Both the position numbers and the translations under genes were made by a program. A DNA stretch of 64,000 nt. Origin: Methanobacteriales archaeon HGW-Methanobacteriales-1 (GTDB taxonomy: Archaea; Methanobacteriota; Methanobacteria; Methanobacteriales; Methanobacteriaceae). Positions 3 through 2,042 of the stretch are shown here, piece by piece. The notes below the pieces were generated by a model. The model was not told where the DNA came from. It saw nothing but the letters and a program-made list of their open reading frames with translations, and ran no database searches. Location: assembly GCA_002839705.1 (NCBI GenBank), contig PGYO01000001.1, positions 248,001-312,000 on the forward strand. Direction: 5' to 3'. Within the stretch, counting starts at the first letter, position 1. Every line of letters starts with the position of its first letter.

Positions 3-440
3 CTTTTTGAAAAAGTTATGAGCATGGTGGAAGAAGCTGAAAAAACCAGTGATTTCATTATCTTTGTTCTGGTACATCCCAAAGACTACAAGGACGCTGT
101 AAAGAATGCAGGTAACATTGCAGTTACTGTTGGAGATAGATTGAAACTGGATCACGCGCCATTGGTTGCGGTTCGTAATGATCTTTTCACGAGACCAGGT
201 AGCTTTGAATTAAATATAATATACTCCGATGAGATTTTAGAAGAATCTCCTTATAATGTAAATATAACTATTAATGATCATGACTATTCCTTTGTAAAAA
301 AGAACTCCCGAAACATTGCCAGTACCATAGCTGCTAGACTTGGAACCTGGAAATTTCCTATAGTATCTGTAAAACCCAGTATGCTCATGGAAAAACCAGG
401 ACAGTTTGATATAATCTTAGAAAAGGGAGGAAATGATTAA
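3..440 (+). CDS. Conserved methanogen protein with internal duplication (5' end outside window)
   Basis: The reading frame is open to the left edge and the first ATG (18) has no ribosome binding site, so the true start probably lies upstream and the gene is partial here. Counting from that ATG, the protein contains two similar halves: residues about 23-69 and about 89-134 share the pattern DY..V(K)..(N)IA.T...RL...P.V.V......PG.F...I. No catalytic motif or membrane segment is visible. Its stop overlaps the next gene's start (TAATG at 438-442), so the two are translationally coupled. It may belong to one of the small methanogen DUF families (DUF2120 comes to mind), but I cannot confirm that, and the function is unknown. 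Confidence 0.75.
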   Translation, partial: LFEKVMSMVEEAEKTSDFIIFVLVHPKDYKDAVKNAGNIAVTVGDRLKLDHAPLVAVRNDLFTRPGSFELNIIYSDEILEESPYNVNITINDHDYSFVKKNSRNIASTIAARLGTWKFPIVSVKPSMLMEKPGQFDIILEKGGND

Positions 441-1645
441 TGGTAGCAGACTATTTTTTAAGGGCGCTATCTGGGTTTTTTCTCAAACATAAGGTACTGA
501 GTATAGGCACTAAGTATTATCCCACGAATAATACCGAAAGGGAATACGTGGAAATGATAAACTACACTCAGACTATGCTTATAGAGATAGAAAAAGCCAA
601 TATTACTACTAATAAGATTTTTGAAAACCTTATTAGTGAGGTTGGGAAGGAAAATATTCCTGATAACAAAAGATTCATTGAAATAAAGCCTGCAGAGGAT
701 CGAGTGGATGAATATGCTCTTTTAAGTAATATTATCATGGGCAGTGATCGTTACTTGTATGTGGAAGTTTTTAATAAAGGACGTATAGTGCAGGAATTTG
801 CAGACATTATTAAACGAGAAAATGGTACTATTGTTGAACAGAGCTTGAGTGAGATTGTTGCTAAGTTGCTTTCTAAAAATGATGCAATAAGAGTAGCTAT
901 TGATCTCATTAGGGTAGGTAACAATAAGGATATTAGTGTTAGGGCCGCTGTGGGAATGACCGGTGCAGCATCCATTGAAAGATCCATCAATTTAAATAGA
1001 GAAATAGGTGAAGTTTCTGGGGTTGGATTTACGAAACTGGGGGGAGAATTTGCTGTTGTTTTTCCTTCAAAATTCTCTAAACTCAAAGGTGAACCTCTTT
1101 TATATGATAACTATCTTTTTATCGATGTTATTGATTCCACTAAATTTATTGATGAAAAAGGTAGAGATCATTTAGTGGAAATAATGAATGACATTAAAGC
1201 ATTCATTGAAAAAGAGTGTAAAGGAAAGATTGAAGGTTATAGGGAAGGTGGTGATGATCTTATAGCTAATTTCCCTACAAAAGATTTGGCTTTAAAAGCA
1301 GGAATTGATTCTGCCTGGCATGCTCTTAATAATGGTGCTAAAATTAGGGCAGGTATAGGTAAAAGTCGAAGAGAGGCTGGTGAAAGAGCTCAGCTTGCTG
1401 ATGGTATCAAACTATGGAATCCTAGTTCATTGATTGTATTTGATGTAGCAGATGGAGTATATGGTTATTTTATTCCATCAGAATTTGCAAGATCAATTAT
1501 GGATTTTGTTTTGCATAAAAAATCAAAAGCATTTTTAATATTCTTGCTGGTATTCTTTGCTACAGTTATAGGTTGGAATATAGGATATTGGCAGTTTGGA
1601 ATAGTAGCAATTTTCCTAGCTGTACTCTACGCTATTACTACCTAA
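440..1645 (+). CDS. Membrane-anchored protein with tandem palm domains, GTP cyclohydrolase III / GGDD type
   Basis: The 401-residue product ends in two hydrophobic helices (about 363-380 and 383-400), so the soluble part is tethered by its C-terminus. Residues about 222-340 look like a nucleotide-binding palm domain: D229 and D232 in FIDVIDST, GGDD at 270-273, then a RAGIG.....A..RA..AD segment strongly reminiscent of archaeal GTP cyclohydrolase III and related GGDN/GGDEF-fold proteins. Residues about 100-215 appear to be a degenerate first copy (a matching VRAAVGMTGAASIER segment but no GGDD). GTP cyclohydrolase III itself has two tandem domains but no membrane anchor. Function is inferred only: nucleotide cyclase, cyclohydrolase or sensor. 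Coupled to the preceding gene by a 1-base overlap. Confidence 0.75.
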   Translation: MVADYFLRALSGFFLKHKVLSIGTKYYPTNNTEREYVEMINYTQTMLIEIEKANITTNKIFENLISEVGKENIPDNKRFIEIKPAEDRVDEYALLSNIIMGSDRYLYVEVFNKGRIVQEFADIIKRENGTIVEQSLSEIVAKLLSKNDAIRVAIDLIRVGNNKDISVRAAVGMTGAASIERSINLNREIGEVSGVGFTKLGGEFAVVFPSKFSKLKGEPLLYDNYLFIDVIDSTKFIDEKGRDHLVEIMNDIKAFIEKECKGKIEGYREGGDDLIANFPTKDLALKAGIDSAWHALNNGAKIRAGIGKSRREAGERAQLADGIKLWNPSSLIVFDVADGVYGYFIPSEFARSIMDFVLHKKSKAFLIFLLVFFATVIGWNIGYWQFGIVAIFLAVLYAITT

Positions 1646-1694: not shown

Positions 1695-2042
1695 ATGAGG
1701 CCCGAGACTGAAGGAAAAATAATTGTTGGTTTAATAATTTCCTTGATTGCATTTGGTTGTGGCTCTGGTGTGGGCATAGTGATAGGTATTTCTCAAAATG
1801 ATACCAATTCTCCTTTTTCACTCAATTACAGTCAGCCAAACAGCTCTGATTTTCCAACAACAACCACTAAATCTACAGATATTTCAAACAATTCCCCATC
1901 ACAAGATTCTCAGAGTAGTGATTCTGAAGTGGTTTATGTAAGCAAATCTGGTAGTAACAGTGGGAATAACAATGGAAATACTAATGGGAATAACAAGGAA
2001 AACACTAGTAGCAAGGATAATAATACTAACCCTGGTTACTAG
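1695..2042 (+). CDS. Small membrane-anchored protein with Ser/Asn/Thr-rich outer tail
   Basis: The 115-residue product has one hydrophobic segment near the N-terminus (about residues 9-32, glycine-rich at its end) followed by a low-complexity tail of Ser, Asn, Thr and Gly that should lie outside the membrane. There is no recognisable domain. A GGAGG site at 1686-1690 sits four bases before the ATG, so expression is credible. Such tails are common in surface proteins of Methanobacteriales and are likely glycosylated, but that is inference. It lies just downstream of the GGDD membrane protein and may share its transcript. Confidence 0.65.
   Translation: MRPETEGKIIVGLIISLIAFGCGSGVGIVIGISQNDTNSPFSLNYSQPNSSDFPTTTTKSTDISNNSPSQDSQSSDSEVVYVSKSGSNSGNNNGNTNGNNKENTSSKDNNTNPGY

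Follow-up and report, generated by a model that had tools for sequence, protein, structure and literature searches.

The gene at positions 440 to 1645 of the DNA analysed here encodes a membrane protein with two palm domains and a GGDD motif, and it raises two questions: does its product make a nucleotide signal and, if so, what would that signal act on? The window, i.e. the whole stretch of 64,000 nucleotides that was analysed (G000:C1:248001-312000), belongs to a 2.57-Mb genome of the Methanobacteriaceae; related public contigs were mostly MAGs of the same family. A first-pass annotation, made from the sequence, had suggested a nucleotide cyclase or a cyclohydrolase-like sensor.

Layout and predicted structure of the palm protein

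The open reading frame at 440-1645 starts with ATG and encodes 401 amino acids. The features discussed below are as follows (window positions).

3 to 440, forward strand: last 145 residues of the partner protein, whose gene starts outside the window
440 to 1645, forward strand: membrane-anchored tandem-palm, nucleotide-cyclase-like protein, 401 aa
440 to 739, forward strand: N-terminal alpha/beta segment (residues 1-100), conserved, without identified relative
740 to 1078, forward strand: palm 1 (residues ~101-213), with E109 and S/T137-E138 in place of the metal ligands
1100 to 1480, forward strand: palm 2 (residues ~221-347), the presumed catalytic half
1124 to 1126, forward strand: D229, first putative metal ligand, in FIDVIDST, equivalent to FTDIVGST of Rv1900c; 72/72 homologues
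1133 to 1135, forward strand: D232
1247 to 1258, forward strand: GGDD (270-273), whose D272 falls on the second metal Asp (GD) in class III cyclases; 72/72 homologues
1346 to 1360, forward strand: RAGIG (303-307)
1346 to 1384, forward strand: RAGIGKSRREAGE (303-315), a conserved strand and the beginning of a helix that follow the putative catalytic hairpin
1520 to 1639, forward strand: transmembrane hairpin at the C-terminus (helices 361-381 and 385-400), from model and hydrophobicity
1695 to 2042, forward strand: small protein with one TM helix and a low-complexity tail rich in Ser/Asn, between the palm gene and argJ

D229, D232, GGDD and RAGIG were all found where the first-pass annotation had placed them. 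Structure prediction, which it had proposed as a check, was run with AlphaFold2 on a 46-member alignment of palm protein homologues (mean pLDDT 86.7, pTM 0.76) and predicted a palm fold for both halves, with an identical order of elements in residues 105-207 and 224-345: strand, helix, hairpin, helix, strand, helix, hairpin. The tandem palm architecture was borne out by this model, by the Foldseek matches given below and by a direct alignment of the profile of palm 1 (residues 100-218) with that of palm 2 (219-350), which reached a probability of 97% (E 1.8e-10), versus 1.5% for the reversed control. Judged from these profiles, palm 1 and palm 2 share a common origin. We have very high confidence that this open reading frame contains the predicted palm fold and its metal ligands. 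Upstream of palm 1, a further conserved segment of ~100 residues, which had gone unmentioned in the annotation, showed no profile similarity to either palm that would make it a third copy. At the other end, the two membrane helices noted earlier were recovered as hydrophobic helices at ~364-382 and ~381-399 and, in the model, as helices 361-381 and 385-400; these last two helices are predicted to form a membrane hairpin.

Residue conservation was scored across 72 distinct homologues. In palm 2, D229, S233, T234, G270, G271, D272, D273, G305, G307 and R310 were invariant (72/72), a conservation far beyond chance, and the D232 position was occupied by Asp in 60 sequences and Asn in 12. The loss of D229 or GGDD among orthologues, which had been named as the outcome that would speak against the first reading, was not seen. 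In palm 1, the D229 column is occupied by E109 and the D272-D273 columns by S/T137-E138; D103, R104, E138, G172, E180, R181, K199 and G201-G202-E203 were invariant in all 72 sequences. The N-terminal copy described as degenerate is thus a real copy that lacks the metal ligands, but by this alignment it is strongly conserved in its own residues and is not decaying. Palm 1 could possibly be a regulatory or pseudo half.

The upstream partner is a Zc3h12a-like NYN ribonuclease

The first-pass annotation had placed a partner with a duplicated domain at 3-440. The duplication was found, but these positions hold no more than the C-terminal end of a protein of 341 aa, the complete gene of which (L010:9415-10440) extends beyond the window, with the ribonuclease domain outside it; the identity of the partner had been missed because the window edge cuts the gene. 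At its N-terminus the partner carries an NYN ribonuclease domain of the Zc3h12a-like type (PF11977, E 3e-23). PF11977 was matched in 43/43 homologues of the partner; the catalytic aspartates are intact, with D6, D77 and D95 invariant, and the model matched the Regnase/ZC3H12C fold (7ndk/3v34). The protein therefore resembles the NYN-PIN ribonucleases of the Zc3h12a/Regnase (MCPIP1) type in its Pfam domain, fold and conserved Asp residues, but differs from them in that no CCCH zinc finger was found and in an additional tandem repeat at the C-terminus.

This repeat (residues ~209-341, window 42-437) consists of two copies of a beta-alpha-alpha-beta-beta unit of ~65 residues, which matched each other with an E-value of 2e-11 (reversed control negative). 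A fold search with the whole partner model found no solved relative of the repeats, and the partner had no match to a CARF-type domain. The repeat is a candidate ligand-binding or RNA-binding domain. The partner gene ends with TAA at 438-440, the last base of which is also the first base of the palm gene's ATG (440-442), and GGGAGG is present just 5' of this ATG (425-430). Both features make translational coupling plausible, in agreement with the coupled, duplicated-domain partner originally described.

Distribution and conservation of the locus

The palm gene was found in 148 of the 152 genomes of the phylum that were examined, in 90 of the 91 of good quality and in all 20 genera represented, as a single copy (in two fragments in one genome). 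In 57 of 59 loci, some of which represent the same genome from two collections, the NYN gene lies directly upstream. Of the two exceptions, one contig begins at the palm gene and one genome (G133) has the NYN gene on another contig. The NYN gene, too, is missing from the four genomes in which the palm gene was not found, probably because their assemblies do not contain the region. The usual gene order is TgtA-NAC-phosphoesterase-NYN-palm-small TM protein-argJ-argB, and intergenic gaps at the locus are often a few bases in the compact genomes. The most distant member (L113) has argJ-argB inverted downstream, with NAC-phosphoesterase-NYN-palm kept together. The small one-TM protein is conserved in position and fast-diverging in sequence; in many genomes it is recognisable or swapped for a similar small ORF.

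Three side observations were made on these loci. In G133 (L130, L035), unrelated genes are located upstream of the palm gene and the NYN gene is at a contig edge elsewhere, which suggests rearrangement or misassembly. A contig binned as Candidatus Bipolaricaulota (L008) carries a Methanobacteriaceae segment with a palm locus nearly as in L007, probably a binning error. Finally, a Zc3h12a-like NYN protein was also matched in the control genome of Methanocaldococcus jannaschii.

Between the NAC and NYN genes, to the left of the window, we found a calcineurin-like phosphoesterase (L010:8282-9031; G000:C1:246282-247031) with all calcineurin-type motifs. Among solved structures it is closest to Rv0805 (E 1e-8); CpdA is matched at E 2e-14, with scores below curated cut-offs. 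The gene contains an in-frame TAA in G121, and in G128, G129 and G133 the match falls into two pieces within one open frame. Its orthologue is absent or relocated in several Methanobacteriaceae that keep the NYN-palm pair; a role as obligate partner was therefore rejected, and we treat it as an optional accessory.

A cyclase encoded next to an RNase effector could suggest an anti-viral defence pair, since the logic is like that of nucleotide-signal defence systems, and the phosphoesterase does match an 'anti-phage phosphoesterase' model, albeit with 71.5 of 420 bits, far under the cut-off. We give this reading the slimmest of chances: the palm gene is present as a single copy in nearly all genomes, in conserved synteny with TgtA-NAC and argJ-argB, no relatives were found in viral contigs or plasmids, and PADLOC returned no match for the palm protein. 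On present evidence, the NYN-palm pair is not a defence system.

Relationship of the palm protein to class III nucleotide cyclases

When the family profile was compared with PDB sequences, the adenylyl cyclase Rv1900c ranked first (E 0.0076 with the whole protein, 0.0036 with palm 2 alone); next came mainly Ma1120 cyclases, ahead of unrelated proteins. In the palm 2 profile, D229 and G271-D272 aligned on the metal-ligand motifs of Rv1900c and Ma1120. Palm 1 aligned weakly to Ma1120 when the full-length single sequence was used, and its profile alone had no match in the PDB. Foldseek likewise placed class III cyclases (1ybu, E 8e-5, prob 1.0) at the top, ahead of GTP cyclohydrolase III (2qv6, E 4e-4), with Csm1 (6o79, E 3.5e-3; 4uw2, E 3.9e-3) behind both. 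"Nucleotide cyclase" was thus the better half of the original guess, since class III adenylyl cyclases lead the matches of palm 2 in the sequence as well as the fold comparison.

The palm protein has in common with Rv1900c and Ma1120 the ferredoxin-like palm topology (in the predicted model), the metal Asp of strand beta1 (FxD..ST) and that of the GD hairpin, both invariant; its two unequal halves are reminiscent of the mammalian C1/C2 pseudo-heterodimers. It differs from class III in having GGDD instead of GDG and a C-terminal membrane hairpin, and it does not match PF00211. Neither Pfam nor NCBIfam yielded a match to a cyclase model, or anything else meaningful. The purine-selecting residues, Lys/Asp in adenylyl and Glu/Cys in guanylyl cyclases, are not matched: the position of the Lys (KSQGD in Ma1120) is occupied by R268 in palm 2 (Arg in 67 homologues, Lys in 5), and the second position found no clear place in the alignment. 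No N..AAR motif of the transition-state Asn-Arg pair was recognisable in palm 2, where the invariant R310 (R311 is nearly so), together with E180-R181 of palm 1, could act as substitutes, to judge from the alignment. Because R268 stands at the purine-selecting Lys position and the Asn-Arg pair cannot be placed, we call the protein class-III-like and not a member of the class.

Comparison with other palm families

GTP cyclohydrolase III (MJ0145, PF05165) also has two tandem palms with a GGD turn, and shares with the palm protein a KAGIGK...AxxAxLAD motif. Together with the 2qv6 fold match, this would fit a membrane-tethered enzyme of that type making a formylated pyrimidine, which we regard as very improbable. 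GTP cyclohydrolase III is soluble, unlike the membrane-anchored palm protein; PF05165 matches no member of the palm family; profiles built for the comparison matched over a 22-residue motif alone, with a probability of 7%; and the palm gene is paired with that of an RNase rather than with a flavin or deazaflavin gene. In addition, a true GTP cyclohydrolase III is encoded elsewhere in the genome, as in most relatives. The identity was rejected on the missing Pfam match, the weak profile match and this separate enzyme; "cyclohydrolase-like" was the weaker half of the guess, with a real resemblance in fold.

The GGDD turn is shared with Cas10/Csm1 and mCpol, and the combination with an RNase (Cas10) or a membrane (Panoptes) partner follows a similar logic. 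The palm protein might accordingly be a synthase closer to the Cas10/mCpol/GGDEF kind. Its GGDD would then produce cyclic di- or oligonucleotides that switch on the RNase, and the pair would be a housekeeping counterpart of type III CRISPR signalling. In favour of this reading, class III cyclases usually have GDG, Csm1 is among the fold matches and the partner would be analogous to Cas10-activated RNases. We consider it quite unlikely, because class III cyclases outrank Cas10 by both sequence and fold, the partner has no CARF-type match, and the locus is single-copy and conserved amid housekeeping genes, without CRISPR or defence genes nearby and without a PADLOC match of the palm protein. A GGDEF diguanylate cyclase was rejected: the Pfam GGDEF model did not match and the motif is GGDD[LFI], not GG(D/E)EF. 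The KLGGE[FY] of palm 1 was also discarded as a GGDEF motif, since it sits in the terminal hairpin and not in the catalytic one. The profile check against these three families suggested by the first-pass annotation returned the short GTP cyclohydrolase III match, and nothing from Pfam GCH_III, Pfam GGDEF or PADLOC.

Other cyclic-nucleotide genes and previous reports

A survey of cyclic-nucleotide domains in 16 genomes (the genome holding the window and relatives) revealed no canonical class III cyclase (PF00211), with control genomes positive, and no cNMP-binding domain PF00027, so that a receptor in these organisms would need to be non-standard. One CYTH protein was present in each of the 16 genomes.

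In a study of pseudomurein, Lupo et al. 2025 (PMC11915815) tabulated, and then set aside, a cluster D composed of OG0001213 ('Zc3h12a-like ribonuclease NYN domain') and OG0001214 ('Nucleotide cyclase', >1 TM), listed for the five pseudomurein archaea studied, including one of the Methanopyrales. Judged by annotation, the >1 TM prediction and lineage, cluster D is the NYN-palm pair. Cyclic AMP was reported in Methanothermobacter in 1986 (PMC8646023), and a 2021 paper concluded that most archaea probably make cAMP by an unknown class of cyclase, as few archaea have class III and one archaeal class IV (CYTH) protein turned out to be a phosphohydrolase (PMC8646023). Our literature search, outside which most subscription journals lay, found no paper devoted to the NYN and palm genes, and a search by Methanothermobacter locus tags returned nothing.

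A possible signalling switch

We tentatively propose, at somewhat less than an even chance, that the palm protein acts as a class-III-like nucleotide cyclase anchored in the membrane, or as a closely related nucleotidyl-transfer enzyme, and that its product or direct contact controls the co-encoded NYN ribonuclease. Palm 2 would supply two metal-binding aspartates, D229 and D272, with D273 adjacent. Palm 1, devoid of metal ligands, keeps the invariant E138, E180, R181, K199 and E203. The chain may thus fold as a pseudo-heterodimer whose halves share a single composite active site, for which the mammalian adenylyl cyclases are the model. In response to some state, the membrane-bound protein would make a cyclic mono- or dinucleotide from ATP or GTP. 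Control would then run from the cyclase to the ribonuclease: the product, or the cyclase itself by contact, would act through the duplicated C-terminal domain of the RNase. The CpdA/Rv0805-like phosphodiesterase that many genomes encode just upstream could clear the signal away. It seems reasonably probable that the palm protein is an active nucleotidyl-transfer enzyme. That its product controls the ribonuclease is plausible, though we would not presume it, and an action of the phosphodiesterase on this product, where it is present, is rather doubtful. Several points speak against this proposal: the sequence match to cyclases is weak and no Pfam or NCBIfam cyclase model matches, palm 2 has R268 at the purine-selecting Lys position and no recognisable Asn-Arg motif, no canonical cNMP-binding domain turned up in the 16 genomes, the phosphodiesterase is not an obligate partner, and the CYTH protein found in every genome tested is an alternative source of cAMP.

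The palm protein could instead be a scaffold that binds nucleotides (sensing the level of ATP or GTP) and recruits or gates the NYN ribonuclease by contact, a degradosome-like anchor without a signalling product. The strict pairing and one-base overlap of the two genes would suit such a role, as would the strong conservation that extends beyond the active site to palm 1, to the N-terminal segment and to the membrane hairpin, and the absence of a known cNMP receptor from the genomes surveyed. We see this as a minority possibility, because the invariant D229, D272 and D273 and the GG turn exceed the usual needs of simple nucleotide binding.

In its widest and unlikely form, the cyclase proposal would describe a near-universal housekeeping second messenger of the pseudomurein methanogens, in which a pseudo-heterodimeric cyclase in the membrane, representing a new family, makes a nucleotide that switches a Regnase-type RNase, has a CpdA-like off-switch in many species and is the source of Methanothermobacter cAMP. 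The sampled genomes have no canonical class III cyclase, yet they encode a conserved, divergent class-III-like palm protein. The pair suggests a signal-controlled RNA-cutting switch in a large group of methanogens and, if the proposal is true, would be a directly testable candidate for signal-controlled RNA decay in archaea.
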